Part shown: piece after piece, positions 2,586 through 26,839 of the stretch | Position numbering within the stretch: position 1 is the stretch's first letter | How the letters are laid out: every line of letters starts with the position of its first letter | Assembly (NCBI GenBank): GCA_025454925.1 | Contig: JALONM010000002.1 | Location: 1-64,000 of the forward strand | Length of the DNA stretch: 64,000 nt | Origin: Cytophagaceae bacterium | GTDB lineage: Bacteria > Bacteroidota > Bacteroidia > Cytophagales > Cytophagaceae | Direction: 5' to 3' | Program-made: the position numbers and the translations under genes | Notes under the pieces: generated by a model | What the model was told of the DNA's origin: nothing | What the model saw: the letters and a program-made list of their open reading frames with translations, nothing else | Database searches by the model: none

Positions 2586-3167
2586 CTATTCGATTCTTCT
2601 AACGATAGTGCCCTCTTTTTTATAACGTTGTCCGGAAGCTGCGCAAATAGCCTCACCTTCGGTATTGAACGTTAGCTTTTCACCGAACTCACTCATCCAA
2701 CCAATTTGTTTGGCGGGGTTCCCTACCACCAATGCATACGCGGGTACAGGTTTGGTAACCACGCTCCCTGCTCCTATAAATGCAAATTTTCCAATTTCAT
2801 TTCCACAAACGATGGTGGCATTGGCTCCAATACTAGCCCCTTCGCGCACCCATGTTTGCATGTATTCATTCTTGCGGTTCACAGCACTCCTGGGGTTATA
2901 CACGTTTGTAAACACCATGGAAGGTCCCAGAAATACATTGTCTTCACATATCACCCCGGTGTACACCGAAACATTATTCTGGATTTTAACATTATTTCCT
3001 AATTGTACTTGCGGAGAGATTACTACATTCTGGCCTATGTTACAATGATTGCCAATCACACAACCTGACATGATGTGGCTGAAATGCCAGATCTTGGTTC
3101 CGCTGCCGATGCTGCAACCTTCATCAACATACGAGGATTCATGTACAAAATAATCGGTATTCATCAT
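2586..3167 (-). CDS. hexapeptide-repeat N-acetyltransferase, WbpD-like
   Basis: 193 residues made almost entirely of left-handed beta-helix hexapeptide repeats ([43 protein letters not shown] and so on), followed by [17 protein letters not shown] and a short C-terminal tail. WbpD and relatives transfer acetyl from acetyl-CoA to the 3-amino group of UDP-GlcNAc3N-uronate. The gene begins at an ATGATGA junction with the aminotransferase stop, indicating translational coupling; either ATG (3167 or 3164) could be used. Position between the WbpE-like and WbpB-like genes makes the substrate assignment likely. The specific sugar is inferred. Confidence 0.85.
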
Positions 3168-4288
3168 GCAAAAAATTCTCGGATAGATTGGCAAATGTAA
3201 GATTGTTGACTTTCTTCCAGTTCGGTGTGCATCGGCAAGGAAAGCACTTGGCGAGCCAGCAATTCCGCTACTGGCAAGGACCCTGGGGGATACTCGACAC
3301 TGGCGTATGCTTTTTGAAAATGTACCGGTTCCGGATAGTACACCATGGTAGGAATGCCTTTTTTTTCCAGGAAAGACTTCAACGCATCGCGCTTACCATC
3401 GGCTACCTTTAATGTGTACTGATGAAAAACGTGAGAGGAAGCTGGGTCGCGGTAAGGAATCTGAATTCCTCCGATACCCGATAACTGGGCATCGTAAAAA
3501 TCAGCAGCTTTTTGCCGTGCTGCAATGTAGGCATCCAGGTGTTTCAGTTTCACCAACAAAATGGAGGCCTGCAAGGTATCTAAGCGAGAATTTACCCCGA
3601 TGATGTCATGGTAATATTTTCGTTCCTGTCCATGGTTACAGATCATCCGTATTTGCTTTGCCAGAGTAGCATCCTGGCTGAATAGGGCGCCCCCGTCTCC
3701 ATAGCATCCCAGGTTTTTGGAAGGGAAGAAAGAGGTAGTACCAATGGCACCGATGGTGCCGGCGTGTTTACGCATGCCTTCCACTTGGCAGAAAGCCCCT
3801 ATCGCCTGTGCATTATCTTCTATCAATGGAATTCCATATTGGTTTGATATTTTCATCAGGGCCTCCATGGCGCAACATTGACCAAACAAATGCACCACCA
3901 CAATGGCTTTGGTACGTTCAGTAATGGAGGCCTCTACCGATGCGGGTGAAATATTAAATGTATGAGGGTCTGATTCGGCAAGTATTAGTTTCAGGCCTAA
4001 CAATGCAGCCGTTTCAACTGTGGCAATGTAGGTAAAGGCTGGCACTATGATTTCATCGCCAGGCTTTAGGGCCAGGGCCATCATGGCTACCTGGAGGGCA
4101 TCGGTACCATTGGCACAACCAATAACAGACGCTGAGTTAAGATAAGATGCCAATTGAGCCTCCAATTCTTTTACCGGAGGCCCTTGAATAAACGCAGAGG
4201 ATTCAATAGAATGAATCAATGCAGCATCTATTTCATTTTTTATGCGTTTATACTGACCTAATAGGTCAACCATTTGAATGGTGTTCAT
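3164..4288 (-). CDS. DegT/DnrJ/EryC1 sugar aminotransferase, WbpE-like
   Basis: 374 residues of PLP-dependent sugar aminotransferase. [16 protein letters not shown] (near residues 58-73) is the cofactor phosphate region, [13 protein letters not shown] carries the PLP-stacking Asp, and [17 protein letters not shown] contains the Schiff-base Lys. WbpE-type enzymes aminate the 3-keto sugar nucleotide made by WbpB. It is the first gene of the minus-strand operon that continues with acetyltransferase, dehydrogenase and thioesterase. It diverges from the asparagine-synthase-like gene at 4509, with 220 bases between them. A different DegT enzyme serves the legionaminic arm (12188-13330). Confidence 0.88.
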
Positions 4289-6340: not shown

Positions 6341-7558
6341 TTAATCATCCGTTCCGTCTTTGTTTACGGTATGACGTAATTTCCAGGTTCCATTGTCTAA
6401 CTTCCATAAATGAGGAGATCTGAATTCCGCACATAATTCATGGAATCGCTCGGGTTTCATATCAATATATTCCATGATTTCGTTGAAATATTTGTCAGGA
6501 AATTCACCATCAAATTTTTTTACCAAGGCACATGCCTCTTCTCTGGTAATATGATTGTTTCTTATTTCTTGCGAAGCATCGTAGGTGGCCCGTCCAATGC
6601 CGAATTTGATAAATGTAGTGTAGTAATGTAGGTCATCAATCTTGTCATCAATACTATTGTATTTACTATATGTGCCTTGAGTACGGAAGGGGCGTGCTTT
6701 GAATCCTGTATTTTCAACAGCGTAGTAATAAACTTCTTGAGGAGTCCATCTCAGGTAATATCCGAGGTAATGGACTTGTATACTGGAATTACTAAGTTCG
6801 GAGGCTGGTGCGGGTAAAAAGGACATGAGATCCGAGTTTGTTACCTGGTATTTTTCGCGAAGCTCTCTAACCGAAACACCACCCAGGTAGATTTCATCCA
6901 GGTTGTTAAAGCTATAATACGATTTATCGCGCAGTGAACTGGCATTGTCGGCGATAGGGTTGCCATATTCAGCTTCATTCTCACCATAAAAGATTAATGG
7001 AATGCCATATTTAAGCGCGATTTTGGGTGCCAGATTTTTTTGCCCCAGCATAAATGTTTGAAACGGATGGAGTAAATTTTCAATAGACAAGCGAGTTAGC
7101 AATTTCATCACTTTGCCATTTCTATTGAAACTGATATTATCGAATCCGCTATCGATCCAGTTCTTCCAGTTTTTGTAGCCATAATCAGTATACAAAATGG
7201 GAGGCCAGGTAACGGTTAATGGATTCATGCCATATTTATACTTAAGAACATGTGCCTGAAAAGCACTGTCTTTGCCTCCGCTGCCCGGGACTAAACAATC
7301 GTAGGATCCATCTTTACTTCTATATTGGTCGAGAAGCTTTAGTAATTCTTCTTCTCTCTTTTTCCAGTCAATTTGATCTTTTTGCTCGTTGGCTCTGCAT
7401 GCATCACAAATGCCTTCTTCATCAAAAGCCATAGTGCGCTTTTTCGTACCAATGGTGTGCTTAAATTCAACTTCCGAAACAGGTCGCTGATTCGACATTA
7501 CACACTTTTTGCAAAAAACTACATTCGAGGGTAGTCCATATTTAGTCTCCAGCGCCAT
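6341..7558 (-). CDS. N-acetyl sugar amidotransferase, WbpG/PseA-like (set A, legionaminic arm)
   Basis: 405 residues. Near the N-terminus are two CxxC pairs (VFCKKCVMS and GICDACRAN), a probable zinc-binding module. The PP-loop ATPase motif follows as PGSGGKDSAFQ (near residue 92), with FYGENEAEYGN further on. WbpG and PseA use ammonia from a HisH-type glutaminase to convert an acetamido group into acetamidino on a sugar. It is the last gene of the leftward arm, separated from the Wzx gene by 232 bases. The matching HisH-like and HisF-like genes lie at 10712-12201. Its position behind the legionaminic operon suggests a nonulosonate or its precursor as substrate, which is inferred. Confidence 0.85.
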   Translation of the reverse strand: MALETKYGLPSNVVFCKKCVMSNQRPVSEVEFKHTIGTKKRTMAFDEEGICDACRANEQKDQIDWKKREEELLKLLDQYRSKDGSYDCLVPGSGGKDSAFQAHVLKYKYGMNPLTVTWPPILYTDYGYKNWKNWIDSGFDNISFNRNGKVMKLLTRLSIENLLHPFQTFMLGQKNLAPKIALKYGIPLIFYGENEAEYGNPIADNASSLRDKSYYSFNNLDEIYLGGVSVRELREKYQVTNSDLMSFLPAPASELSNSSIQVHYLGYYLRWTPQEVYYYAVENTGFKARPFRTQGTYSKYNSIDDKIDDLHYYTTFIKFGIGRATYDASQEIRNNHITREEACALVKKFDGEFPDKYFNEIMEYIDMKPERFHELCAEFRSPHLWKLDNGTWKLRHTVNKDGTDD

Positions 7559-7790
7559 ATAGGGTATATTCTAGTAAATGCTACAACATGTGAAAAAATG
7601 AATTTCATCTGCAAGTGAACAGCGTTTCATTTTTTTGTAAGTATATAAAAATCGTGGAACTTTAAAAAGTCAATTTCTACATTCTGTCTGCTTACAGCAG
7701 AAACGCTTCCATCCCCAAGCTTACGTAATTTCAATGATATGGTTTTCATAAAGGCAGCGGCATTGTGAAACAAGCATGAAAGAAAATGAC

Positions 7791-9215
7791 TTATTGTTGC
7801 TTGGCAATAGAACGTTTTAATCTCCAGGCGAAAGCCCCCATGGAGAGCACTGCGGAAAAACTTAGGACAAGTTTCATGAGGATACTGCTTTCAGAAAAGT
7901 AAAGCGCAGTGCCGGTTAAAATAACCGTTAGGCTTAGCCAACCAAACGGATAATAGGATATGGGGTGTCTGGATTTGAAATCCTTTAAATGAAAGCCGGC
8001 ATATCCGTTATACATCAAAGAAATAAATGTGGCAATGACTGAGGCTAGCACTCCGAAAAAGGGAACAAAGATTAAATTAAGAACTATATTCAAAATGCCC
8101 CCTGCAAACGAAATCTTCCATAGCTCGCCAGTTCTTTCATGATAAAACAGAAAATTAACACAGGCGTAGTACATTGGCAAATAGCAATATCCCATGATGA
8201 TGATGATGGCAATATAAAAACTCGAATGAAGTACAGGGTCACTCACTAACACGTAAAATATTTCTTTTAGCCAGAGGCAACCCACAAAAGCAAGCAGTAA
8301 AAAGAGTACTTGAAATAAGAAGGTGTAATCTCTGATTAATAGTAAATTTTTATCTTCTCGCGTGGCCAGCATCCTTAGTTGGGTAGGACTAATAGCCAGT
8401 CCCAAAGCAGAAGCTAAGAGTTCTACATAATTCCCAAACATATAAGCGAAGTTATATTTTCCTATTTCCTGAATGGGTTGGTTCATTCGATCCAGAATTA
8501 TTCGATCGGCAGTGTTATTTAAAAAACTAGAATAATTATGAGGAATGGTTGGCAATCCTATGCGCAAGTATCTTTTGATGAATCGAATATTTATTCTGAA
8601 ATCAGGATAAAATTTTTGTTTAACGATTAAAGGAAGTCCGTACATGGAGCCTTGAATAAGGGTGCTGGCAAAAATAGCGTAGAACCAACTCATATAGCCC
8701 AGTTGGAGTTGAACGATTCCTAGGTAATTAATCAATACACCTGCAAGTCCTGAAATTGCTGTAACCACTGATATAAAGAGTGCATTTTCGTTGAGTTGAA
8801 AATACCGGTAACCAAACAATAAAGGCAATTCAAAGAATAAAGAAGAAACAGAGTAAAGAGTTATGATTATGAGTTTTCGTTCGTCGGGGATTTCAGGCAT
8901 GGTAGCATACAAAACCAAGGCCTGAAGCAGTACAAAGAATAAAGACCAAATCATCAGAAAACCAAATAAGCGTTTCCAGATCCCAATCCATTTGATAGGA
9001 TGATTAACAAAAAGATTTACCACACAAATCGTTAATCCCAGGTCTTTCAGCGCCGCGAGTCCACCTACATATCCAAGAATAATTCCATACACTCCAAAAT
9101 CATGTGGGCTTAAAAAACTAGTAAGTACAGGTAACAATAAAAAATTAAGAGCCTTAGGTAGTTGGGGGGCTATGGCATATAACAACGCATTTATGGCAAT
9201 TCTATTCGCAGGCAT
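7791..9215 (-). CDS. Wzx-type oligosaccharide flippase (MOP superfamily)
   Basis: 474 residues with about 12-14 hydrophobic segments. The beginning (LPKALNFLLLPVLTSFLSPHDFGVYGI) is typical of Wzx/RfbX proteins, which move lipid-linked repeat units across the inner membrane. The ATG at 9215 overlaps the TGA of the preceding gene by one base; a GTG one codon upstream is the alternative. The presence of Wzx and a Wzy-like protein (25437) implies a Wzx/Wzy-dependent pathway. No Wzz, Wza, Wzc or O-antigen ligase is visible, so O-antigen and capsule cannot be told apart. Confidence 0.88.
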   Translation of the reverse strand: MPANRIAINALLYAIAPQLPKALNFLLLPVLTSFLSPHDFGVYGIILGYVGGLAALKDLGLTICVVNLFVNHPIKWIGIWKRLFGFLMIWSLFFVLLQALVLYATMPEIPDERKLIIITLYSVSSLFFELPLLFGYRYFQLNENALFISVVTAISGLAGVLINYLGIVQLQLGYMSWFYAIFASTLIQGSMYGLPLIVKQKFYPDFRINIRFIKRYLRIGLPTIPHNYSSFLNNTADRIILDRMNQPIQEIGKYNFAYMFGNYVELLASALGLAISPTQLRMLATREDKNLLLIRDYTFLFQVLFLLLAFVGCLWLKEIFYVLVSDPVLHSSFYIAIIIIMGYCYLPMYYACVNFLFYHERTGELWKISFAGGILNIVLNLIFVPFFGVLASVIATFISLMYNGYAGFHLKDFKSRHPISYYPFGWLSLTVILTGTALYFSESSILMKLVLSFSAVLSMGAFAWRLKRSIAKQQ

Positions 9216-10699
9216 CACCTTTTTAGTTCATGGATCATGGTAGTTACTTTTTCTAAGTAATTTTTTTGATATACATAATCTCCCAGCTTTTCGCACTCTG
9301 CTTTCCAGGCATTTCTAAAATCTTCGTTGGTGGCAAGCTGCAGTGTATAAGAAAAGATTTCATCCAAGTTTTTGGCAGGTTTTATGGCCTCCATCAATGA
9401 AGTGGTATTAAGGAATGAGTTAAGCCCATCCGGAAAATCTTTGGTAGCAATAGTAATAACAGGGATGCCCAGCGATATTGCTTCCAGTAGCACGGTAGAA
9501 TCAAATCCGATAACCAAGTCGGCCGTGTACATGCATTCGTAAATATCCGACCGAAGACTTTTAAATTCGAAACCTGAATTACTAACGGCATGCTCATACC
9601 CTGTCAAATGATGAGAAGGCTCCAACGGATGTGGTTTTATAATAAACTCGAATGAGAGTTCCTTGGTTTTTGTTTTAAGAAATTCTATCAGTTGAAGCGA
9701 TTCTGTATAGGTAGTCCATTGTGTAGGAAAAAGAATTCGTAAAGGTTCTGCAAAGGTTCTGTTATATAATTTTCTTTTTAACTCCATTCTGTAATATCCT
9801 ATGGCTACAATCTGGTCCTGGTTCCACACCGGACATTTAAGAAGAAAGTCTTTGTAAAAATTCCCGAATACACCAATTTTAGTGGGAAGGACCAGTTCCT
9901 TTCGATAGTTGGCAAGTATTGGGTGATAATCATAGTAGGGATGATTATCTTCAACCAAGCCATGTTGCAATTCAATCATTGGAATGCCGCGGTTCAACGC
10001 TGCTGCCATTTTTCCGGTAGCTACCTGCTCTGATCCCACGATGAACCGTGGCCTGATGATTAAGTAAAAACAATTATAAAATAAGTATTCAGCATAAAAG
10101 GCACAAAGGAAATGCTGAATGATGCATGAGTAATCTGGAATCGTCTCTCCCTTTTTAGAAAAGTAGTCTTGTAAAGACGAATGCAAGGTATGGGAGACTT
10201 TACTTTTATAACCAGTTTTTATTAAAATCCGGGTTAAGCCTCCAATTAAAATACGAAAAGCATCTTCGTCAAAATCCCTGCGCATTAAAGGTGCTGAGGT
10301 GTTAGTTGTCCGGTCTTTCTCAATATAAATATAATCGGTAATTGCTTTTTCAATGATCAATGGGTCGATCAGGGCATTTACCCGTTTACCTTCCTCGTTC
10401 TGAAATAGTCGATCTACACCATTGGTAAACAGTAAAACTTTTCGTTTCCAGAGGGAAGAAATAATAACCATTCCAATAGCCGGAATATTTTTTAGGAATA
10501 AGAGCAATAAGTCCATCATTCCGTCTTTTTTGCCCGGTTCATCTTCTCCCTCACCTTGAAACAAAGTGTGAAAAAAGGGAGACTTAATAATATGCCAAGC
10601 AAGCCAATTTCGAACTTTGTGTTTTTTGATCTCCTCGATTTGGTCGCCCTCAAACCCAACAAGAAGTGTTGCAATCTTATAGTAATATTCTCTATCCAT
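9215..10699 (-). CDS. putative GT-B glycosyltransferase of unassigned family (candidate nonulosonic acid transferase)
   Basis: 494 residues without a family I can name. A C-terminal half with IELQHG (near residue 245), FIIKPHP (near 356) and GFDSTVLLEAISLGIPVI (near 398-415) resembles the nucleotide-binding half of CDP-glycerol/KpsC/polysialyltransferase-type GT-B enzymes, where the HP dipeptide and the small-residue/Glu motif contact the CMP moiety. The N-terminal ~200 residues look like no domain I recognise. It lies between HisH and Wzx in the legionaminic operon, so a transferase using CMP-legionaminic acid is a reasonable inference. No hydrophobic anchor is obvious beyond a weak stretch near residues 63-80. 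Confidence 0.55.
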   Translation of the reverse strand: MDREYYYKIATLLVGFEGDQIEEIKKHKVRNWLAWHIIKSPFFHTLFQGEGEDEPGKKDGMMDLLLLFLKNIPAIGMVIISSLWKRKVLLFTNGVDRLFQNEEGKRVNALIDPLIIEKAITDYIYIEKDRTTNTSAPLMRRDFDEDAFRILIGGLTRILIKTGYKSKVSHTLHSSLQDYFSKKGETIPDYSCIIQHFLCAFYAEYLFYNCFYLIIRPRFIVGSEQVATGKMAAALNRGIPMIELQHGLVEDNHPYYDYHPILANYRKELVLPTKIGVFGNFYKDFLLKCPVWNQDQIVAIGYYRMELKRKLYNRTFAEPLRILFPTQWTTYTESLQLIEFLKTKTKELSFEFIIKPHPLEPSHHLTGYEHAVSNSGFEFKSLRSDIYECMYTADLVIGFDSTVLLEAISLGIPVITIATKDFPDGLNSFLNTTSLMEAIKPAKNLDEIFSYTLQLATNEDFRNAWKAECEKLGDYVYQKNYLEKVTTMIHELKR

Positions 10700-10711: not shown

Positions 10712-11350
10712 CTAGCCCTTTAGTCGCCTGAACCAATTTTCATAGATTTGTAATCCTTTAGGACCACTTTTCTCCGGATGAAATTGACATGCAAAAACAT
10801 GTCCAACTTGAACGCTTGAACAATATGTTTGATGGTATTCGGTGGTTGAGAGTATATCTTCCGCGCGGTCAGGGAGTGCATAAAAGGAGTGCACAAAGTA
10901 CATGAATTCTCCCGCTTTGCAATTTTCCAATGGGCTGGTTTTCCATTGTCCTGGCTCTGCTTCATTAATTTTATTCCATTGAATTTGTGGTACTCGGAGT
11001 TTTTCGGTCGAAAACTTTACGATCTTTCCAGGAATAATTCCCAATCCCTTATGATCTCCAAATTCCTCGCTGCTACTGAATAACAATTGCATGCCGAGGC
11101 ATATTCCCATTAATGGTATGCCCGCGTTTACACGTTCCAGTAATGCCTGGTTGGCTCCTGTACGTTCCAGATTTTGCATCGCCGCACCAAATGCACCTAC
11201 TCCTGGAAAAATTAGTCCATCGTACTTAGTGAATTGATCTGGATCTGAAACAATTTCAGCATTCATACCTACATACTTGCAAGCCTGCATAACACTAAAC
11301 AAATTGCTCAGGTCATAGTCGATTATTCCAATCTTGGCTCTTGTACTCAT
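10712..11350 (-). CDS. HisH-like class I glutaminase (set A)
   Basis: 212 residues from the ATG at 11350, which overlaps the HisF-like stop as ATGA; a TTG three codons upstream is less likely. GICLGMQLL carries the nucleophile Cys84 and CQFHPEKSG the His191-Glu193 pair, so the catalytic triad is complete. In glycan loci, HisH homologues hydrolyse glutamine and pass ammonia through a HisF-like barrel to a WbpG-type amidotransferase. No histidine biosynthesis genes are nearby and a second HisH/HisF pair exists at 18642, so a sugar-modifying role is favoured. Its likely partner amidotransferase is at 6341. Confidence 0.85.
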   Translation of the reverse strand: MSTRAKIGIIDYDLSNLFSVMQACKYVGMNAEIVSDPDQFTKYDGLIFPGVGAFGAAMQNLERTGANQALLERVNAGIPLMGICLGMQLLFSSSEEFGDHKGLGIIPGKIVKFSTEKLRVPQIQWNKINEAEPGQWKTSPLENCKAGEFMYFVHSFYALPDRAEDILSTTEYHQTYCSSVQVGHVFACQFHPEKSGPKGLQIYENWFRRLKG

Positions 11351-12201
11351 ATTCTGCAATATATAGATTGATCGTTTAGAAAAGATTTTAATTCTGAAAT
11401 GGAGATCATTTCGGTTTTATTAAAGGCCTTTCCTTTTTTTATAAAATCAAAATTTCCTTCTTGCTTGGAATGGTCTGCTGGGGCAGTAGTAACTTTAGTA
11501 AGGCTTGAGTAATGCAGCATAGAGGCTATGCAGGTTGCAGCGGCTGTAGTTTGTTTGAATAACTCTCCTACCTGTTGCTTATTTCCGGCTCCACCGTGTG
11601 CAATCACCGGTATGGACACCGACGCGGCTACTTGGCGGATCAGTTCCAGGTCATACCCTTCGCCAGTACCTTCTTTATCGACCGACGTAATTAATAACTC
11701 TCCCGCACCCAGTTCCTGTATTTGTTGAGCCCATTCCAAAACATTCACTCCTGTGTATTCGCGGCCGTTGTCAACAAATGCCAGGTACTTCCCATCGGCT
11801 TGTTTGATGGCTTCAATGGCAACTACAATAGTTGAGCTGCCAAATCTTTCAGAGGCCTCTCGGATCAGATTAGGATTGCGGATCGCAGCGGTGTTTAAGG
11901 AAATCTTGTCGGCTCCTGCCCGCAGGGTGGTTTTTATATCTTCAATAGTACGAATTCCACCGCCTACTGTAATAGGAATAAAAATATTCGTGGAGGTGCG
12001 CCGGATGATGTCTTGCAATCCATTGCGTTCATACAAACTTGCTACTACATCCTGGTACATGATTTCATCTGCTCCTTCCTGGTAGTAGAACTGAGCGAAT
12101 TCCTCCGGATTTCCCAATACGCGCAAGCCTTCCAGATGGATGCCTTTCACCAGATTGGGTCCTTTTATATCAATGCGAGGAATAATTCTAACAGTATTCA
12201 T
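11347..12201 (-). CDS. HisF-like ammonia-channel barrel protein (set A)
   Basis: 284 residues, (beta/alpha)8 HisF family. The N-terminus IIPRIDIKGPNLVKG keeps Asp11 and Lys19 of the cyclase active site. At the position of the second catalytic Asp (Asp130 in Thermotoga HisF, 'RDWV') it has Glu in VLEWAQQ. GAGELLITSVDKEG and VIAHGGAG are conserved phosphate-binding loops. It is about 30 residues longer than copy B, with a charged C-terminal extension (GNFDFIKKGKAFNK and beyond). It overlaps the LegC-like gene by 14 bases and the HisH-like gene by 4. The role is probably ammonia delivery for acetamidino formation rather than histidine synthesis. Confidence 0.85.
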   Translation of the reverse strand: MNTVRIIPRIDIKGPNLVKGIHLEGLRVLGNPEEFAQFYYQEGADEIMYQDVVASLYERNGLQDIIRRTSTNIFIPITVGGGIRTIEDIKTTLRAGADKISLNTAAIRNPNLIREASERFGSSTIVVAIEAIKQADGKYLAFVDNGREYTGVNVLEWAQQIQELGAGELLITSVDKEGTGEGYDLELIRQVAASVSIPVIAHGGAGNKQQVGELFKQTTAAATCIASMLHYSSLTKVTTAPADHSKQEGNFDFIKKGKAFNKTEMISISELKSFLNDQSIYCRI

Positions 12202-13330
12202 GATGAAATCTAAGTATGGCAGATTTTACTTGTTCTAATTGAGACATGGAAATAGAGGTTGAGCAAGGTAAGCTAATACCCTTGCTGTATACCTGGAAAG
12301 AGAAATCGGATTCGGAGACATACGTAAACGATTGCAGATAGGGCAATCGATTCATGGGCACCCAAAACGGGCGCACTTGAATCGATTGTTGAATTAAATA
12401 CCCCATCAAATCTTGTTGACGTGGATGAAGAATTGTAAACAACCAATCGTTGGGTTCAGCTCCAGGAATTACTTCCTGGAATTGCACTCCATCTAGAGTG
12501 CGTAAGAAATCTCTGTAAAATGCGTTAACCTGATGCTTATGTTGGATAAAAGCATCCAACTGTTCCATCTGAGCCAGGCCCATAGCTGCCAGAATATTTA
12601 CCAATCGGTAATTGTAGCCAGCATCATCGTGCATGTATTCAAATGGATCCGATTTAGCCTGTGTGGTTAAATGTTTCGCTTTTTTTGCCACTTGTTCATT
12701 ATCGGTTACCAGCATACCACCTCCGCCTGTGGTAATAATTTTATTTCCGTTAAAACTGAAACATCCGGCGAGCCCGAATCTGCCGGCGTGTGTTCCCTGG
12801 TATCGAGTTCCCAGGGCTTCGGTCGAATCTTCGATGATAGTAAGATGATAACGATTCGCAAGGTCCAGCAATTGCTGCATATTCCCAATGTTGCCAAGAA
12901 CATGAACCGGCATAATTGCCCGGATGCGCTGCTTCGTTTCTTTATGTTGGCAAACCCCGTTGTTTAGACGTGTATGCTGGTGTAGATATTGCTCTAGCAA
13001 ACTCAAATCCATTTGCCAGGTTCGTGGATCGATATCTACCAATACAGGTTCTGCGCCTGTGTATAATATGCTATTGACGGAAGCTACAAAGGTAATGTTG
13101 GGGACCAATACGAGGTCACCACGCTCAACTCCTGCCATCAACAATGCAATATGAAGCGCAGAGGTCCCATTCACAGTGGATACAGCGTACCGTGCTCCCG
13201 TATATTCGGCTACTGCTTTCTCAAAACGGTCAACATAACTGCCCACGGAAGAAACCCAATTAGTATCCAGGCAGTCTTTGATGTACTCCCATTCCTTTCC
13301 AGATAAATTCGGCACCGATAGCGGTATCAT
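12188..13330 (-). CDS. legC: LegC-like PLP-dependent sugar aminotransferase
   Basis: 380 residues of the DegT/DnrJ family. The start MIPLSVPNLSGKEWEYIKDCLDTNWVSS matches the LegC subgroup, which aminates C4 of the nucleotide-linked 4-keto-6-deoxy sugar produced by LegB. STVNGTSALHIALLMAG is the cofactor region, TIIEDSTEALG carries the PLP-contacting Asp, and FNGNKIITTGGGGML the Schiff-base Lys. It lies 1 base downstream of legB and overlaps the HisF-like gene. The subgroup assignment rests on the N-terminus and the LegB neighbour. Nucleotide identity (GDP or UDP) depends on the PtmE-like enzyme at 15013 and cannot be seen directly. Confidence 0.87.
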   Translation of the reverse strand: MIPLSVPNLSGKEWEYIKDCLDTNWVSSVGSYVDRFEKAVAEYTGARYAVSTVNGTSALHIALLMAGVERGDLVLVPNITFVASVNSILYTGAEPVLVDIDPRTWQMDLSLLEQYLHQHTRLNNGVCQHKETKQRIRAIMPVHVLGNIGNMQQLLDLANRYHLTIIEDSTEALGTRYQGTHAGRFGLAGCFSFNGNKIITTGGGGMLVTDNEQVAKKAKHLTTQAKSDPFEYMHDDAGYNYRLVNILAAMGLAQMEQLDAFIQHKHQVNAFYRDFLRTLDGVQFQEVIPGAEPNDWLFTILHPRQQDLMGYLIQQSIQVRPFWVPMNRLPYLQSFTYVSESDFSFQVYSKGISLPCSTSISMSQLEQVKSAILRFHHEYC

Positions 13331-13331
13331 A

Positions 13332-14321
13332 CTAAATATTGTAAATATTGTGTTTGTAAGTACTTAAATTTTGTTGCTCAGAAAACCAGGCAATCGTCTC
13401 TGCCAGCCCTACTTCTAAATCGTATTGAGGAATCCAGTCAGTGAGATTTTTGATTTTTTCGTTGGAGCCTAAAAGTCTTTTCACTTCGCTTTTTTCAGGC
13501 CTCAGTCGAACTTCGTCGCAAATGATTTTTGCTTCCGGCCGTATTTTGTCGATTAGTTTTTGGGCAAGATCTCCTACGGAAATTTCCTGTTGAGTTGCGA
13601 TGTTAATTTCTTCTCCAATGGTGCGCTCGGATAGCGCAATCTTTAAAAAACCATTCACGGTGTCTTTAACAAATAGTAAATCTCTCGTAGGGGAAATATC
13701 TCCCAATTTCACCTCATTTACACCGTTTAGAAGTTGTGTTATAATAGTAGGAATGACAGCTCTTGCAGATTGGCGGGGGCCATATGTATTGAATGGCCGC
13801 ACAATGGTGATAGGCATTTCAAAAGATCTGAAAAAAGATTCAGCCATACGGTCTGCTCCAATTTTGGAAGCACTGTATGGCGATTGCCCCTGGTAAGGAT
13901 GCTTTTCATCGATGGGCACGTATTGAGCTGTTCCGTACACTTCAGAAGTGGAAGTTACCAAAACCCTCTTGGTTTTTAACAGACGAGCGGCTTGCAATAC
14001 GTTTAAAGTTCCTTTGATATTTACGTCGACGTAGCTGTCTGGTGAGTGATAGCTGTATGGAATTGCGATCAAGGCCGCCAAATGAAATACGGTATCGATT
14101 CCTTCCATGGCAACCCGTGTACCATTGGGATCACGGATGTCCCCTGAAAAGATTTCTATCGCTTTTAGCTTTTCTGGGGCCAAGGTGTCGAGCCAGCCAT
14201 AGGAATTAAATGAATTATACAGAACAAATGCTTTAACATCGTATCCATGGTCCAGCAGATGTTCTACCAAATGGCTGCCAATAAAGCCATCAGCACCAGT
14301 TACTAGTACTTTTCTACTCAT
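13332..14321 (-). CDS. legB: LegB-like NAD-dependent sugar-nucleotide 4,6-dehydratase
   Basis: 329 residues, extended SDR. VLVTGADGFIGSHLVEHLL is the NAD-binding glycine motif. The AFVLYNSFNSYGWLDTL signature near residues 32-48 is characteristic of LegB. TSTSEVYGTA and YSASKIGADR give the catalytic Ser/Thr-Glu and the YxxxK motif. The enzyme dehydrates GDP- or UDP-GlcNAc to the 4-keto-6-deoxy sugar, the first committed step towards legionaminic acid. It is coupled to legF by a 4-base ATGA overlap and followed after 1 base by legC. Confidence 0.9.
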   Translation of the reverse strand: MSRKVLVTGADGFIGSHLVEHLLDHGYDVKAFVLYNSFNSYGWLDTLAPEKLKAIEIFSGDIRDPNGTRVAMEGIDTVFHLAALIAIPYSYHSPDSYVDVNIKGTLNVLQAARLLKTKRVLVTSTSEVYGTAQYVPIDEKHPYQGQSPYSASKIGADRMAESFFRSFEMPITIVRPFNTYGPRQSARAVIPTIITQLLNGVNEVKLGDISPTRDLLFVKDTVNGFLKIALSERTIGEEINIATQQEISVGDLAQKLIDKIRPEAKIICDEVRLRPEKSEVKRLLGSNEKIKNLTDWIPQYDLEVGLAETIAWFSEQQNLSTYKHNIYNI

Positions 14322-15016
14322 ACAATATATTTACGATGAATTAAAAATTCTGCGAAATCCCAATCAAGCAAGGTGTCCAGATCCAGGGAAGAAACAGGAT
14401 CCATCAATACTTTCGTGATCTTTTCAAAGTTAGAAAAAGCCCCGTATTTTTCAAATGCAGCAATCCGGAAGGCGTATACGGCGCCATTCAATTCAAATAC
14501 CACTGGCGCATCTTGCCTTCTGTTTATCGAAGGGGCTTGCAATAATTTTTCCAAATGACCACTTGGGTTTTCCAGGTAATGCAAATAATACGGATTTGCT
14601 TCCGCCACTTTTACAGAGGTAGATAAATCACAGCCTGTGTTTAGATTTTCTAACGCTTGCCGCACATGTTCTTCTTTTCTGAAAGGTGACGTTGGCTGCA
14701 GTAATACAGCTTCAGAATATTGTTTGCCATTCTGCCTGCACCATTGGAAGAGATGGCTTAATACCTCGGTCATGCCGGAGGTATCGCTGGCTAATTCCGG
14801 TGGACGATGATAGGGTACCGGCAATCCGTAGCGTAAAACGGTTTCTTCAATTGTGGCATCGTCGGTTGAAATATAAATGTGCTCGTCCGCAACAAATCGT
14901 CTGGCCATGTCAATGCTATGGCAGATCAATGGTTTTTCATTCAATAATTTAATATTCTTCCCAGGTATACCTTTAGATCCACCGCGGGCAGGTATGATAA
15001 ACATGGGGGAACTCAT
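14318..15016 (-). CDS. legF: CMP-nonulosonic acid cytidylyltransferase (LegF/NeuA-like)
   Basis: 232 residues. FIIPARGGSKGIPGKNIK at the N-terminus is the CTP-binding motif of NeuA/LegF/PseF enzymes, and LLQPTSPFRKEEHV is the second conserved block. It activates the free nonulosonic acid to its CMP form. Legionaminic rather than sialic specificity is inferred from LegB, LegC and PtmE next door. It overlaps the upstream PtmE-like gene and the downstream legB gene by 4 bases each, consistent with tight translational coupling. Confidence 0.88.
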   Translation of the reverse strand: MSSPMFIIPARGGSKGIPGKNIKLLNEKPLICHSIDMARRFVADEHIYISTDDATIEETVLRYGLPVPYHRPPELASDTSGMTEVLSHLFQWCRQNGKQYSEAVLLQPTSPFRKEEHVRQALENLNTGCDLSTSVKVAEANPYYLHYLENPSGHLEKLLQAPSINRRQDAPVVFELNGAVYAFRIAAFEKYGAFSNFEKITKVLMDPVSSLDLDTLLDWDFAEFLIHRKYIV

Positions 15017-16068
15017 TTTAATTTCAGATGTTTAATATCCTCTTGTGCTTTTTTAAAATCTTCATGCTTCCCAATATCCAACCAATATCCTAAAATAGGA
15101 AAGGAAGTAACCTTTACACCTTCCGAAAGCAAAACATCAATTAAATCGGTAGCATTAAAAAATTGGGACTTAGGGATTCGGTTTAAAAATTCACGCCGGA
15201 TCAGATAGATCCCTGCATTGGAATAATGGGTGTAGGTTGGCTTTTCAACAAACGATTTTACTTGTCCATTCGTCGTTTCCAACACAGCATAGGGGACATT
15301 CACGGTATAAGGAATGCTGGCAATTGACATGCCAGCGCCTGAGTTGATAAATTCCAGATAAAATTCTTCAAAGTTGATATTGGAGAGGATATCGGAATTC
15401 ATCAATAATATAACTTCTTCTTGGAAGTCATCAATCAGTGATAGTGCGCCTATAGTACCTAATGGGTTGTTTTCATAAACGTATGAAATGTCGCAATTAA
15501 AATGTTCGCCACCTTTGAAATAAGAGGTAATCGAATCAGGTAAATAGCCTAAAGATACATGAATGCGTTCCAATCCGTAATGCACCAGCCTGTCTATATT
15601 ATGTTCCAGGATAGGTTTATCACCTACATACAACATAGGTTTTGGTACTTTTTCGGTGAGCGGACGCAGTCGTTCTCCTTTCCCTCCGGCCATGAGCACA
15701 GCTTCCAGGGGCAAGCAGGAGGCTTGCTCGGAAAAGTCAATGATTCTTACCAAGTTCCTGTTGGTGTCGAGCAGGGGAATGAGTTCATATTTTTCTTCAC
15801 GAAACCTGATCAATTCCGAAATATTGATATTTCCTTTTTGCAAGAATTTAAAATTCTTGTTCATGGCTTCCGAGATAGGATGAGATACCTCACTGCCTCT
15901 AATTAAGCTTCTACGGATATCGCCATCAGTAACGGTTCCTATCAACTGGAATTCTTCATTGAGGACGAATAGAACCCGCACCGAGAAATCTACCATGTCA
16001 TTCAATCGAATCAATGCTTCTCGAATGGTGTGCGTTTCTTTAATAAAATGTTGCTGATACTTTTCCAT
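15013..16068 (-). CDS. ptmE: PtmE-like nucleotidyltransferase with N-terminal CBS domains
   Basis: 351 residues. The first ~120 form a CBS-domain pair (VRVLFVLNEEFQLIGTVTDGDIRR and EKYELIPLLDTNRNLVRIIDF); the rest is a sugar-phosphate nucleotidyltransferase with MAGGKGERLRPLTEKVPKPM. This CBS-NTP_transferase fusion is the architecture of Campylobacter PtmE, which makes GDP-glucosamine from GlcN-1-P and GTP for legionaminic acid synthesis. The ATG at 16068 overlaps the LegG-like TGA by one base; the TTG a codon upstream is disfavoured. A GDP-linked pathway is therefore likely. The CBS pair may sense adenine nucleotides, which is an inference from the domain. Confidence 0.85.
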   Translation of the reverse strand: MEKYQQHFIKETHTIREALIRLNDMVDFSVRVLFVLNEEFQLIGTVTDGDIRRSLIRGSEVSHPISEAMNKNFKFLQKGNINISELIRFREEKYELIPLLDTNRNLVRIIDFSEQASCLPLEAVLMAGGKGERLRPLTEKVPKPMLYVGDKPILEHNIDRLVHYGLERIHVSLGYLPDSITSYFKGGEHFNCDISYVYENNPLGTIGALSLIDDFQEEVILLMNSDILSNINFEEFYLEFINSGAGMSIASIPYTVNVPYAVLETTNGQVKSFVEKPTYTHYSNAGIYLIRREFLNRIPKSQFFNATDLIDVLLSEGVKVTSFPILGYWLDIGKHEDFKKAQEDIKHLKLK

Positions 16069-17189
16069 CAAACCACTTTCAAAAAATCAATTATATGGCT
16101 TACAATCCTGCTAGTCGCATTTCCATCGCCGTAAATATTGTTGGAATCCAAGGCAGGTAAGGTAGATATGGCCTTTATCCGGGCTTGAATGGCCGTCTTT
16201 TCAATGGGTGTATGCAATACGTTGGCACCCGACTCCCGTCCCTTTTGGCGGTCGCCCACATTTATAGCATACTTGCCGAATGAGGCTGCTTCAATAATCC
16301 CTGAAGATGAATTTCCCATTACAAAGGCACAATGCTTCATCGCTGAATAATATCCAACTACTCCCATCGATTCAAACAAAAAAAACGGAGCTTCTCTATT
16401 TTTACAAAAATCAAAAATAGAATCCCTAATAGAAGTTCCATACGTATCAGCATTCGGTAAGGTTATGATTACTTGGTATTTCGTTTCCGATACAACTTCC
16501 AATAAGGTTTTAATATGATTTACATTTTCCTCCATGGATAGGGTGGTTTCTGGATGAAAAGTAAATAAAATGCTAGGGGTCAATAGATCTATACCAAACT
16601 GCTCCCGTAGTTGAGAGATTGATAACAGCGACACCGACTGAATGCTGTCAATAGCCAATGCTCCTGTAGCGAAAATTCCTTTTTCCTCACCCAGCAATTC
16701 CTTAAGTCGTTGACTGGCCGTGTGGGTGGCTGTAAAATGCAAGGTTGCACACAAACTAATAGCGTGGCGATAAATATTGTCAATAGCGCCCAAGGTGGTT
16801 TCTCCTCCGTGTAAATGCGCGATAGGTAAACGAAAAGGCACGGCAGATGCCACCGCGGCAAACATTTCAAACCGGTCGCCCAAGGCTATAAGTAAGTCTA
16901 CCTGATTCTTTTCTTGTTCCCAAAATCCAGCAAACAGACTCATTACGTCTGCTACATTGTTACTGATGCCCAGTGGGCTGTCATCCGGAGAATAGGTTTT
17001 AAAAGTTTGGTAAACCTCAATATTGTCTTCCTTGAATTTATTTAGAGTGCATCCAAATGCCTTTTCCGGATGTGTGCCGAACGCCACTACCCGCAGGTTT
17101 AGTTTATTTTCCCTGAGTAAGGCTTTCATGAGCGGCAAATAAATGCTGTAGTCTGCTCGTGTACTGCTTAGTAGATATATATTTTTCAT
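16068..17189 (-). CDS. legG: hydrolysing 2-epimerase, LegG/NeuC-like
   Basis: 373 residues from the ATG at 17189 (MKNIYLLSSTRADYSIY), which overlaps the legI stop as ATGA; an upstream in-frame ATG at 17204 is less likely. Motifs are SSTRADYS, ALGDRFEMFAAV, HLHGGETT and MGNSSSGIIEAASFGK, all diagnostic of NeuC/LegG GT-B-fold epimerases. The enzyme releases the nucleotide and inverts C2, giving 2,4-diacetamido-2,4,6-trideoxymannose. The product is then condensed with phosphoenolpyruvate by LegI. It is the second gene of the leftward operon. Confidence 0.9.
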   Translation of the reverse strand: MKNIYLLSSTRADYSIYLPLMKALLRENKLNLRVVAFGTHPEKAFGCTLNKFKEDNIEVYQTFKTYSPDDSPLGISNNVADVMSLFAGFWEQEKNQVDLLIALGDRFEMFAAVASAVPFRLPIAHLHGGETTLGAIDNIYRHAISLCATLHFTATHTASQRLKELLGEEKGIFATGALAIDSIQSVSLLSISQLREQFGIDLLTPSILFTFHPETTLSMEENVNHIKTLLEVVSETKYQVIITLPNADTYGTSIRDSIFDFCKNREAPFFLFESMGVVGYYSAMKHCAFVMGNSSSGIIEAASFGKYAINVGDRQKGRESGANVLHTPIEKTAIQARIKAISTLPALDSNNIYGDGNATSRIVSHIIDFLKVV

Positions 17190-18202
17190 TCCAGGTCTTC
17201 CCATAAAAGTTTTTCATCGGCTTGTTTTGGATTTTTGAGAGTCCTGCCAATTACTTGCTCTATTTCCATGGGGGAAATGCCATCTCCTGGTCGCTTCATC
17301 TCTAAATCTTTCATAGACAGAATAGAACCGGCGGGAAGCTCATGGCACAGATGTATGCTTTTGCGGGCAATAATTTTGTTTTTACTTTCCGACTCCGAAG
17401 GGATTTTTATTCCATGTCCTAATGCAAGTTCTATATTCCGGATAGCTTGAACCATTTCTTTGAGTTCTCCGGGTTCCAGCGATGCTTTATGGTCAGGCCC
17501 CGACATCGTTCTATCCAAGGTAAAGTGTTTCTCAATGCACACCGCACCCATGGCCACGGCGGCAATTGGTACTTCTATGCCGAGGGTATGGTCGGAATAT
17601 CCTATTCGGACTCCAAACGTTTGATGAATGTCTTCTAAGGCACGCAAATTTACATCTTTCATGGGAGTAGGATACTCCGTATTGCAGTGGAGCACAATCA
17701 CTTTTTCTAGGGGAAGGCCCGAAGTGGTAAGCACTTTCAAAGCATTTGCAATTTCCTCTTTATCCGACATACCTGTGGAGAGAATAACCTCTTTGCCGAA
17801 CGATGCCATCTGTTGTAAATACGGCTTATTGGTGATTTCACCCGAAGGTACTTTGTAATGATTGAAATTCAAGGAATGCAAAAATGCTAAACTTTCCATG
17901 TCGAAAGCCGTTGACAAAAATTGAATACCTTTTTGATTGCAATACTCCATGAGCGCATAATGCTGATCTTTAGAAAGCTCTAATTGCTTGAGCATTTCCC
18001 ATTGTGAAGATTCCGATTGCATATTGTCGATCTGGTACTGGGCCATTTTGGCTTGCTTACTTACCAGTTTGGATGCCTGGAACGTTTGAAATTTGACGTA
18101 ATCTGCTCCAGCGGCGGCGGCAGCGTCTACCAGCTTAAAGGCCAGATCCATCTTTCCATTGTGATTAACTCCAGCTTCTGCTATAATTAATGTCTTACCC
18201 AT
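17186..18202 (-). CDS. legI: N,N'-diacetyllegionaminic acid synthase, NeuB/LegI-like
   Basis: 338 residues. It begins MGKTLIIAEAGVNHNGKMDLA, where the family always starts; the frame stays open 67 codons further upstream but that part has no homology. KFQTFQASKLVSK, LSTGMSDKEEI, HCNTEYPTP and DHTLG are NeuB barrel motifs, and the last ~60 residues form the SAF (antifreeze-like) domain. It condenses the diacetamido-trideoxymannose with PEP. It is the first gene of the leftward operon and diverges from the HisH-like gene at 18642. LegH, the N-acetyltransferase of the same pathway, is missing from this operon. Confidence 0.9.
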   Translation of the reverse strand: MGKTLIIAEAGVNHNGKMDLAFKLVDAAAAAGADYVKFQTFQASKLVSKQAKMAQYQIDNMQSESSQWEMLKQLELSKDQHYALMEYCNQKGIQFLSTAFDMESLAFLHSLNFNHYKVPSGEITNKPYLQQMASFGKEVILSTGMSDKEEIANALKVLTTSGLPLEKVIVLHCNTEYPTPMKDVNLRALEDIHQTFGVRIGYSDHTLGIEVPIAAVAMGAVCIEKHFTLDRTMSGPDHKASLEPGELKEMVQAIRNIELALGHGIKIPSESESKNKIIARKSIHLCHELPAGSILSMKDLEMKRPGDGISPMEIEQVIGRTLKNPKQADEKLLWEDLE

Positions 18203-18641
18203 AGAATTCTCAACGAAGTTCTTAAGTAAGTGAAAATTAAATACTTTAAAAAATGAAATCTTCCAGGAACCATCAAACAATTCGGTAAGGCTTTTAGATT
18301 CAGGAGAACAAAATGAAATGCACAGAGAATTAAATTCATCTAATAGGGTCTTTAAACGGAGACTAGGCAGAGGTGCGGAATGAAGGGAGTTATAATGGAT
18401 CATGCATGTCCGAATGCTGCTAGTCGTTAAGTAAGTTCCAAGAGCTGGAAGATGTCTCCGTGTTTCTTAATTCAACTAAGCCTTTTTGTAAATTATTGGT
18501 TTTTTAAGTACTTTTTGACAATATTTAAATCGACATCAAGAAGGGGATTAAACTTTTTAAACTTACAGTAAAGAACCAAATTTCATTCGGACTTAATATC
18601 ACATACTGTAACAATCGGATTGTATTTACATTAGTTTCACT
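18203..18641. other. 439-base divergent control region between the two arms of the glycan locus
   Basis: It lies between the legI start (minus) and the HisH-like start (plus), so promoters for both arms should be here. It is AT-rich, most so at 18480-18560. I found no exact TTG-N19-21-TAnnTTTG on either strand, no strong hairpin and no convincing coding sequence; the upstream extension of the legI frame covers half of it but shows no homology. Confidence 0.55.
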
Positions 18642-19262
18642 ATGGTTGTAATTATTGACTATGGGGTAGGCAATTCTACTTCCATAAAAAATATGTTGAG
18701 GAAGGCTGGTTGTGCCCAATCTGTCATAAGTTCCAATCCCGATGAAATTTCCAAGGCAACCAAACTTATTTTGCCCGGTGTTGGAGCTTTTGATATGGGA
18801 ATGGAAAATCTACATAAAAGTGGTTTAGTAGAACTGTTGAACCGCCGGGTGTTGGAAGAAAAAATTCCGATACTGGGTATCTGTTTGGGGGCGCAATTGT
18901 TGACCAAGTCAAGCGAAGAAGGCACGATGCCTGGCTTAGGTTGGGTAGATGCTACCACGCTGCGCTTTCAGGTGGATGATGAGAATAAGAATTTGAAAAT
19001 ACCCAATATGGGATGGTGTGATGTAAGCATGCAAAAAGAAAGCAGGTTTATTTTAGATTTGCCGGCCGATTCCAGATTCTATTTCGTTCATTCGTATCAT
19101 ATTGTTTGTCGCGACAAAGCCGATGTATTGCTCACCGCAAAGCATGGTATCACTTTTACCGCAGCCATCGAAAAAGAGAATATTATAGGTGCTCAATTTC
19201 ACCCTGAAAAAAGCCATAAATTTGGACTGACGCTTTTTAAAAATTTCATATCAAACTATTAA
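18642..19262 (+). CDS. HisH-like class I glutaminase (set B)
   Basis: 206 residues. VVIIDYGVGNSTSIKNML is the N-terminal HisH strand-helix, GICLGAQLL holds Cys81, and GAQFHPEKSH holds His187 and Glu189, so the triad is complete. It is the first gene of the rightward arm, 5 bases before a HisF-like gene and followed by a WbpG-like amidotransferase. This is the gene trio known from P. aeruginosa O5, where it builds the acetamidino group of a ManNAc3NAcA derivative. The downstream WbpI-like epimerase (21170) supports that sugar as the substrate here. Confidence 0.88.
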   Translation: MVVIIDYGVGNSTSIKNMLRKAGCAQSVISSNPDEISKATKLILPGVGAFDMGMENLHKSGLVELLNRRVLEEKIPILGICLGAQLLTKSSEEGTMPGLGWVDATTLRFQVDDENKNLKIPNMGWCDVSMQKESRFILDLPADSRFYFVHSYHIVCRDKADVLLTAKHGITFTAAIEKENIIGAQFHPEKSHKFGLTLFKNFISNY

Positions 19263-19267
19263 ATCGG

Positions 19268-20032
19268 ATGGGAAGAATTAGAGTTATTCCTGTATTATTA
19301 GTGAAGGGCAGCGGACTTTATAAAGGAGTAAAATTTAAAAATCATACGTATATCGGAGATCCGATCAACGCAGTAAAAATTTTTAATGACAAAGAGGTAG
19401 ATGAGCTTATCGTTATTGACATAGGGGCTACCCTTGGCAACAAAGTGCCCGATTTTTCCCTTATCTCAAGGATTGCAGGAGAAGCCTTTATGCCCCTAGG
19501 TTATGGAGGAGGTATTAAGAGTCTGGACCAGATCAAACGTATTTTTTACGAGGGGGTAGAAAAGGTTGTTATTAACACCTCCGCGCATAATAGCACCGCC
19601 TTAATCGAATCTGCCGCTAAAACCTTTGGCAGCCAGAGCGTGGTTGTTTCCATTGATATAAAAAAGAACCTTTTTGGTAAAATTGAAGTATATACCCATA
19701 GTGGGACAATAAACACACATAAAGATCCGGTCCAATTTGCCAAGGAAATGGAATCTGCTGGAGCAGGAGAGCTTTTTTTTCAATCTATTGACAAAGACGG
19801 TACTTTTGCCGGATACGATTTGCCAACCCTTAAAAAGATTACCGACAAGGTTTCCATTCCGGTAATTGCAGGGTGCGGGGCTTCCGGTTTAGAAGATTTT
19901 AAAATGGCTATTTCGGAGGGAGGAGCCTCTGCTGTAGCAGCTGGAAGTTTATTTGTGTTTGTGGGAAAAACGAAAGGGGTGTTGATTAATTACCTCTCAA
20001 ATAATGAAATAAACCAATTGAATAATGGCTAG
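19268..20032 (+). CDS. HisF-like ammonia-channel barrel protein (set B)
   Basis: 254 residues, HisF fold. The N-terminus VIPVLLVKGSGLYKG has Leu at position 11 where the cyclase has its catalytic Asp (IPCLDV); Lys19 is kept. The second catalytic Asp is kept (HKDPVQFAKEME). GAGELFFQSIDKDGT and VIAGCGASG are phosphate-binding loops. Loss of Asp11 argues against imidazole glycerol phosphate synthesis and for ammonia channelling to the adjacent WbpG-like enzyme, whose gene it overlaps by 8 bases. It is therefore not the histidine-pathway HisF. Confidence 0.87.
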   Translation: MGRIRVIPVLLVKGSGLYKGVKFKNHTYIGDPINAVKIFNDKEVDELIVIDIGATLGNKVPDFSLISRIAGEAFMPLGYGGGIKSLDQIKRIFYEGVEKVVINTSAHNSTALIESAAKTFGSQSVVVSIDIKKNLFGKIEVYTHSGTINTHKDPVQFAKEMESAGAGELFFQSIDKDGTFAGYDLPTLKKITDKVSIPVIAGCGASGLEDFKMAISEGGASAVAAGSLFVFVGKTKGVLINYLSNNEINQLNNG

Positions 20033-21173
20033 CCTAGATAGACCGTACCAGATGTGTACCAAAACGGTAATGGATACTACCGATCCGGATATTACATTTG
20101 ACCGGGAAGGTGTTTGCAATCACTGGCACGAATATTTTGATAAATTAAAACAACGACCTTCGCAAGATGCTCTCTTAAACTATCACGAAGAAACAGTTAA
20201 AAGAATCAAAGAGTCGGGCAAAGGTAAAGCGTACGACTGTATCATTGGACTCAGTGGTGGAGCAGATAGCAGCTATCTTGCCTATATAGCAAAACAATGG
20301 GGCTTGCGTGCCTTGCTGGTACATTTCGATAATGGCTTTAACTCCGAGAGTGCCGTTTCTAATATTGAAAATATCGTACGAAAGTTAGAATACGACTACC
20401 ACGCATTCGTCATGGATTGGGATGAATTCAAGGATTTGCAACGATCCTATTTTTACGCTTCCGTTTTGGATTTGGAAATTCCCAATGACCATATGATTTT
20501 TGCCGCACTCTATAAACTGGCAAGTCAACACCAGGTGCAATACATCATCACCGGTTTTAACAACGCTACGGAATCTATACTTCCAGAAAAATGGAGGTAT
20601 ACTGGGAAAAAAGATTTAGTTAACCTCAATAATATTCAGAAGAAATTTGGGACCGTTCCGCTGGTCCACATGCCTAAGCTGGGAATATGGCAGTTCGCCT
20701 GGTATATGACCGTAAAGGGTATACAGCAATACGCGCCACTTCATTTCATTGGGTATGATAAGCCTAAAGCCAAAGAAATTCTTACAAGAGAATTGGGGTG
20801 GAAAGATTATGGTGGCAAACACCATGAGTCTGTTTTTACTCGCTTTTATCAGGGCTACATTCTTCCAAGAAAATTTAATATCGATAAACGGAAGGCTCAT
20901 TTGTCGACCATGATTTGCTCAGGACTCATTTCCCGAGAAGACGCCTTGCATGAATTGTCTTTGCCTACCTATGATGTCAATATGCAAGAGGAGGATAAAA
21001 TTTACATTGCCAAAAAGTTGGATTTCACGGAAGAAGAATTTGAGAAACTTCTTTCTCTGCCGAATGTTCCACATGAATTTTATGGCACCGATCAATGGCA
21101 ACAAAATCTCGTTTTTGGATTGAATCGATTGGTGAAGCGGGTATACAATTTCAATAAAATAAAGCATTTGTGA
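20025..21173 (+). CDS. N-acetyl sugar amidotransferase, WbpG/WbuX-like (set B)
   Basis: 382 residues. The PP-loop is IIGLSGGADSSYLAY (near residues 73-87). The N-terminus reads QMCTKTVMDTTDPDITFDREGVCNHW: the expected CxxC pairs of the zinc-binding module appear as CTKT and CNHW, so one Cys of each is lost compared with set A at 6341. It should use ammonia from the adjacent HisH/HisF pair to turn acetamido into acetamidino. It overlaps the HisF-like gene by 8 bases and the epimerase gene by 4 (GTGA). Overall length is close to copy A (405). Confidence 0.87.
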   Translation: MASLDRPYQMCTKTVMDTTDPDITFDREGVCNHWHEYFDKLKQRPSQDALLNYHEETVKRIKESGKGKAYDCIIGLSGGADSSYLAYIAKQWGLRALLVHFDNGFNSESAVSNIENIVRKLEYDYHAFVMDWDEFKDLQRSYFYASVLDLEIPNDHMIFAALYKLASQHQVQYIITGFNNATESILPEKWRYTGKKDLVNLNNIQKKFGTVPLVHMPKLGIWQFAWYMTVKGIQQYAPLHFIGYDKPKAKEILTRELGWKDYGGKHHESVFTRFYQGYILPRKFNIDKRKAHLSTMICSGLISREDALHELSLPTYDVNMQEEDKIYIAKKLDFTEEEFEKLLSLPNVPHEFYGTDQWQQNLVFGLNRLVKRVYNFNKIKHL

Positions 21174-26783: not shown

Positions 26784-26839
26784 TTTTCACTTTTTTTAAC
26801 CACATTAATCTAGCTTTTTTTCTATACATTTACATATAT

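Follow-up and report, generated by a model that had tools for sequence, protein, structure and literature searches.

A candidate CMP-legionaminic acid transferase with a GT-B fold, encoded within the legionaminic acid operon of a Cytophagaceae bacterium

The stretch of DNA analyzed here (64,000 nucleotides, hereafter the window) carries a surface polysaccharide locus in which an open reading frame of 494 codons with an ATG start is embedded among genes for legionaminic acid (Leg) biosynthesis. The frame begins 12 bases past the stop codon of a HisH-like gene, and its TGA stop overlaps the first codons of wzx. Its coordinates and the LQHG, KPHP, and GFDSTVLLEA blocks quoted in the original prediction were all present, the blocks at residues 244-247, 355-358, and 398-407, respectively. 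A search of 19 genomes of the same bacterial family recovered two further homologs, the better of which (29% identical, nearly full length) lies in another genus and adjoins the same Wzx, WbuX, and HisH genes as in the window; a chance open reading frame was thus ruled out, and the reality of the gene was confirmed. The arm of the locus reads LegI, LegG, PtmE-like, LegF, LegB, LegC, HisF, HisH, the 494-residue protein, Wzx, and WbuX, with a gap of ~230 bases separating Wzx from WbuX:

17186-18403, minus strand: LegI/NeuB nonulosonic acid synthase (PF03102, E 8.9e-101; TIGR03569 above cut-off)
16068-17204, minus strand: LegG/NeuC hydrolyzing 2-epimerase (TIGR03568, 348.7 bits, above cut-off)
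15013-16071, minus strand: PtmE-like protein, CBS plus sugar-1-phosphate nucleotidyltransferase (PF00483 and CBS)
14318-15016, minus strand: CMP-nonulosonic acid synthetase, LegF (PF02348, E 4.7e-21; PseF-like, below the cut-off of that equivalog)
13332-14321, minus strand: LegB dehydratase (TIGR04180, 501.3 bits, above cut-off)
12188-13330, minus strand: LegC aminotransferase (TIGR04181, 468.1 bits, above cut-off)
11347-12201, minus strand: HisF-like subunit of a sugar amidation set (PF00977, E 1.2e-62)
10712-11359, minus strand: HisH-like glutaminase subunit (by sequence; 34-51% identity to HisH-like neighbors in related loci)
9215-10699, minus strand: candidate CMP-nonulosonic (legionaminic) acid transferase, GT-B fold, 494 residues (QHG 245-247, Q327, K355/H357/P358, S401/T402/E406)
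7791-9218, minus strand: Wzx flippase, Polysacc_synt (PF01943, E 8.7e-13; start overlaps the stop of the transferase gene)
6341-7558, minus strand: WbuX-type N-acetyl sugar amidotransferase, partner of HisH/HisF (TIGR03573, 371.7 bits, above cut-off)

Curated NCBIfam cut-offs were passed by LegI, LegG, LegB, LegC, and WbuX, and the predicted placement of the gene among the CMP-Leg pathway, HisH, and Wzx was borne out by family models and, for HisH, by the identity values above. Of this amidation set, the original prediction had named HisH alone; HisF and WbuX are also present. It had further held that the arm contains no rival for the transfer of Leg, and the 494-residue protein was indeed the sole glycosyltransferase (GT)-like product found there in a scan with family models. 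A LegH-type N-acetyltransferase was not recognizable in the Leg arm (12188-18403); a hexapeptide acyltransferase at 2586-3194 may serve as a substitute, or a LegH gene may lie elsewhere.

Several further genes lie outside the Leg operon proper:

1550-2656: GFO
2586-3194: hexapeptide acyltransferase
3164-4288: DegT
18642-22222, plus strand: second HisH/HisF/WbuX-like set, followed by a WecB-like epimerase
22210-23490 and 26771-28072: GT4 genes of the other arm

Taken together, the second amidotransferase set, the WecB-like and GT4 genes, and the DegT, GFO, and acyltransferase genes suggest that a second amidinated sugar of the ManNAc3N-uronic acid type may be made, through a putative ManNAc3NAmA-type pathway like that of Pseudomonas O5. 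The GT4 enzymes of the other arm could transfer this sugar.

The protein had been described as unassigned, and it gave no match above cut-off in Pfam or NCBIfam. The Pfam scan returned only DUF354 and Epimerase_2, both below cut-off (E 0.03-0.07), and none of its sialyltransferase families; the NCBIfam matches, to BFO_1060 (28.9 bits versus a cut-off of 200), surf_polysacc, and LA_1612, were all sub-threshold. Against the PDB, the single sequence retrieved chance matches only (ribosomal S2 and RfaG), and neither it nor a broad family profile (A3) matched a sialyltransferase. A scan of the genome contigs with the single sequence gave no match, a second family member was not found in the host genome, and searches of that genome for GT52 and GT42 were without a match, as were the control searches. 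Homologs were found in 10 other genomes when 395 Bacteroidota genomes were searched, and extra members were found with a profile of eight sequences (A2), A3 being the broader and more diverse of the two profiles. Only hits of about E 1e-11 or better were accepted into the family, because several of the weaker ones were short open reading frames, maybe NeuC- or PseG-like, that would inflate the linkage to NeuB reported below. By these sequence comparisons, the 494-residue protein heads a divergent, uncurated GT family found across Bacteroidota. In a subfamily of 580 residues (L062, L063, L025, and L021), the same QHG, HP, and S-T motifs are retained, and its genes are found away from nonulosonic acid clusters.

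The GT-B architecture that had been proposed, with structure prediction as the suggested check, was recovered in a confident AlphaFold2 model built from 23 family sequences (pLDDT 86.8, pTM 0.87). The model comprises two Rossmann-like halves and an N-terminal helical extension, so that the first ~200 residues, previously thought to match nothing, are modeled as the second Rossmann-like half of a GT-B protein together with this extension. Residues 61-83 of the extension are hydrophobic, and in the model it could rest on the membrane. A fold search returned 252 PDB matches with E <= 0.001, the top ones GT-B proteins, including UDP-GlcNAc 2-epimerases, MurG, and the CDP-donor enzymes TagF and TarL; a search of a viral fold library gave generic GTs only. 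The leading matches were UDP-GlcNAc 2-epimerases and UDP-sugar GTs, with TM-scores below 0.5 on the query, and their high rmsd is probably explained by two-domain flexibility.

The prominence of epimerases among the best fold matches, together with the weak Epimerase_2 and DUF354 hits, raises the prospect that the protein is a relative of UDP-GlcNAc 2-epimerase or another GT-B protein that is not a transferase. We regard this as highly improbable, since the sequence match falls far under the Pfam cut-off, the operon already has an epimerase of its own (NeuC/LegG) with WecB on the other arm, and the conserved residues match CMP-sugar transferases. A polyol phosphate transferase of the TagF/TarL kind, using CDP-glycerol or CDP-ribitol, would likewise fit the fold matches, as TagF and TarL are GT-B enzymes with a CMP-containing donor, and the Glyphos_transf model gives a weak match to one member of the family. 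That model does not match the 494-residue protein, however, nor does any sequence match link the protein to TagF or TarL, and with no polyol pathway seen in the locus, no gene for CDP-polyol synthesis recognized among the locus genes scanned, and linkage to NeuB across the family, we give this reading hardly any credence at all.

The residues held in common across the family bear on the identity of the donor. Among 17 core members, Q245, Y256, and K or R at 355 were invariant (17/17), H246, H357, S401, and E or D at 243 were conserved in 16, and Q327, P358, and E406 in 15. In the polysialyltransferase MhPST, K289, H291, S339, and T340 contact the cytidine nucleotide (PMC5517516), and the window protein has S401 and T402 alongside H357, with a spacing from His to Ser of 44 residues versus 48 in MhPST. 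The K/R-x-H-P and S-T elements thus match the CMP ligands of MhPST, which supports a CMP-linked donor. The (poly)sialyltransferases of GT38, GT52, and GT80 likewise have K-x-H-P and S-T ligands at similar spacing, but an overall sequence match to them was not detected, and their D/E-D/E-G base motif is not conserved in the family; the only such element in the window protein, EEG at 102-104, is not kept in the family alignment.

The original prediction had also likened the donor half to KpsC-type transferases. Profile A3 matched KpsC chains over ~90 residues of the donor half (E 5e-4 to 3e-3), a link made by A3 alone, as the narrow profile A2 matched only a processive glucosyltransferase in the PDB. 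In the alignment of A3 to 6mgd (KpsC), Q327 falls on the Gln of QVESD, the HP of KPHP (355-358) on HP, and S...EA on S...EA. KpsC (GT107), WbbB (GT99), and KrkA (GT140) are retaining CMP-Kdo transferases that share the HP motif and the Gln of QXXXD with the 494-residue protein, and in enzymes of this kind the carboxylate of Kdo is bound by the Gln, with the Asp acting as nucleophile (PMC12887879, PMC10148158). These likenesses would accord with a double-displacement enzyme that, like KpsC, WbbB, and KrkA, transfers an ulosonic acid with retention. However, the Asp, which lies at +4 from the Gln, is found in only 1 of 23 family members and is replaced by Tyr331 in the window protein, and KpsC was absent from the 50 best fold matches, leaving this mechanism very unlikely in our estimation. 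The N-terminal half also differs from those of the three enzymes. The resemblance of the donor halves therefore stands, while the KpsC-type label is unfit because the nucleophile of KpsC is absent. Assignment to GT107 or to the classical families of sialyltransferases is not warranted; membership in an uncurated GT-B family describes the protein best.

Another relative by profile is the BFO_1060 family (NF046086), which gave a profile-profile match over residues 210-455 (E 6e-15) and is likewise found in or near NeuB clusters, all eight of its members over cut-off lying 0.2-15 kb from a NeuB gene. It differs in being without the QHG and Gln327 features, and the 494-residue protein falls far short of its cut-off, as noted above. 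A genome scan with the BFO_1060 alignment recovered mainly Ignavibacteria-type loci and no Tannerella. Transferases of pseudaminic acid (Pse) and Leg derivatives are, as a kind, known in Bacteroidota from Tannerella: in T. forsythia, GtfS (Tanf_01245) and TFUB4_00887 were assigned to Pse and Leg derivatives by knockout and mass spectrometry, the knockout removing the terminal NulO residue (PMC6388019, PMC6120980). By their description, these resemble the 494-residue protein in being ~440-residue enzymes of GT-B type with an HP motif, and their genes are clustered with CMP-Pse/Leg genes, Wzx, and AsnB in an arrangement similar to that of the window. GtfS, however, is reported to have D/E-D/E-G and DXD motifs, neither of which is conserved in the family described here.

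Family members were picked by sequence alone. Of 22 genomes, one of them contributing the window's own gene, 15 had a family gene no more than 10 kb from NeuB, and in one other the distance was at most 12 kb. As a control, NeuB lay within 10 kb of 7 of the 150 best Glycos_transf_1 (GT4) genes listed for the same 22 genomes (odds ratio 44 for the family versus these 150, Fisher p 1.5e-11). NeuB paralogs with E above 1e-24 were left out for the family and the GT4 control alike, and two genomes whose family genes sit on contigs shorter than 10 kb (G403 and G385) were omitted. Four of the non-linked members belong to a subfamily of ~580 residues with unrelated surroundings (G069, G013, G034, and G131), and another sits on a 10-kb contig (G254). 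The remaining one (G019; L065, 9530-16870) adjoins a CMP-sugar synthetase (E 1e-48), an HpcH/HpaI aldolase, and a HAD phosphatase, possibly another, aldolase-based route to a CMP-ulosonic acid. In genome G187, the gene order of the window recurs as LegI-LegG-PtmE-LegF-HisF-HisH-WbuX-family gene-Wzx; WbuX is 79% identical there, and the transferase only 13-14%. The position of the transferase is thus preserved despite its divergence in sequence, a pattern that a difference in acceptor would lead one to expect. Another locus (L016, genome G124) has two overlapping GT genes near a Leg cluster, one BFO_1060-like (7773-9032) and one of the 494-residue protein's family (9022-10557), both of one wider superfamily.

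The linkage also weighs on the possibility that the protein is an ordinary UDP- or dTDP-sugar GT that builds the same repeat unit and lies in the Leg arm merely because the enzymes of one glycan are encoded jointly. The GT-B fold is common to UDP-sugar enzymes, and the locus appears to make another sugar (DegT, GFO, acyltransferase, and WecB-like genes) and would need several GTs. Those sugars, however, can be served by the two GT4 genes of the other arm, the control places NeuB near GT4 genes far less often than near family genes, and the conserved motifs match CMP-binding rather than UDP-binding families. We therefore hold an ordinary donor to be unlikely, if less so than the readings weighed above.

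We consider it likely that the 494-residue protein is a transferase of a CMP-legionaminic acid derivative that acts on a surface glycan. This candidacy, put forward in the original prediction, is supported by the complete CMP-Leg operon around the gene and the lack of any other GT-like gene in the arm, and it gains from the GT-B fold, the KpsC profile match, and the family-wide linkage to nonulosonic acid clusters relative to the GT control. Against it weigh the lead of UDP-GlcNAc 2-epimerases and UDP-sugar GTs among the fold matches, the weakness and short span of the KpsC match, the ~580-residue members away from NeuB, the poor conservation of D/E-D/E-G, and a precedent from B. subtilis, in which SpsB, a TagB-domain protein with HP motifs encoded next to Leg genes, turned out to be dispensable for Leg transfer (PMC7439481). 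As we envision it, a metal-independent GT-B enzyme would take the CMP-Leg derivative made by the products of the adjacent genes, the derivative being probably amidinated by WbuX, HisH, and HisF, and would transfer it to a lipid-linked glycan that is flipped afterwards by Wzx. The C-terminal Rossmann half would bind CMP through Lys355, His357 of the HP motif, Ser401, and Thr402, placed on the cytosine and phosphate, and His357 may stabilize the CMP leaving group. Gln327 probably holds the ulosonic acid by its C1 carboxylate, and activation of the acceptor hydroxyl would fall to the N-terminal half, in which His246 or Glu243 of E-x-Q-H-G is the most promising candidate residue. Because the protein has no counterpart to the nucleophilic Asp found in retaining Kdo transferases, the sugar is probably transferred directly, with inversion, and retention of the KpsC type is unlikely.

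More tentatively, and at somewhat less than even chances, the homologs could make up a family, widespread in Bacteroidota and as yet unclassified, of GT-B enzymes that transfer nonulosonic acids with inversion and that have the donor half and Gln of the retaining Kdo enzymes with the nucleophile absent. Such a family would form an evolutionary link between retaining Kdo enzymes and inverting enzymes of the sialic acid type. NeuB-family genes were present in 295 of the 395 Bacteroidota genomes sampled, all NeuB-type synthases being counted, and to our knowledge few transferases are known for legionaminic and pseudaminic acid. The 494-residue protein is recognized by none of the named families tested, and a family recoverable by sequence searches and located in nonulosonic acid clusters would open the missing transfer step to annotation and testing and would be a source of enzymes for synthesizing glycans that contain legionaminic or pseudaminic acid. 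Genome G000 carries a second NeuB-type synthase gene (G000:C95:1772-2833, L132) that, from its contig neighbors as judged by eye, lies away from recognizable polysaccharide genes.
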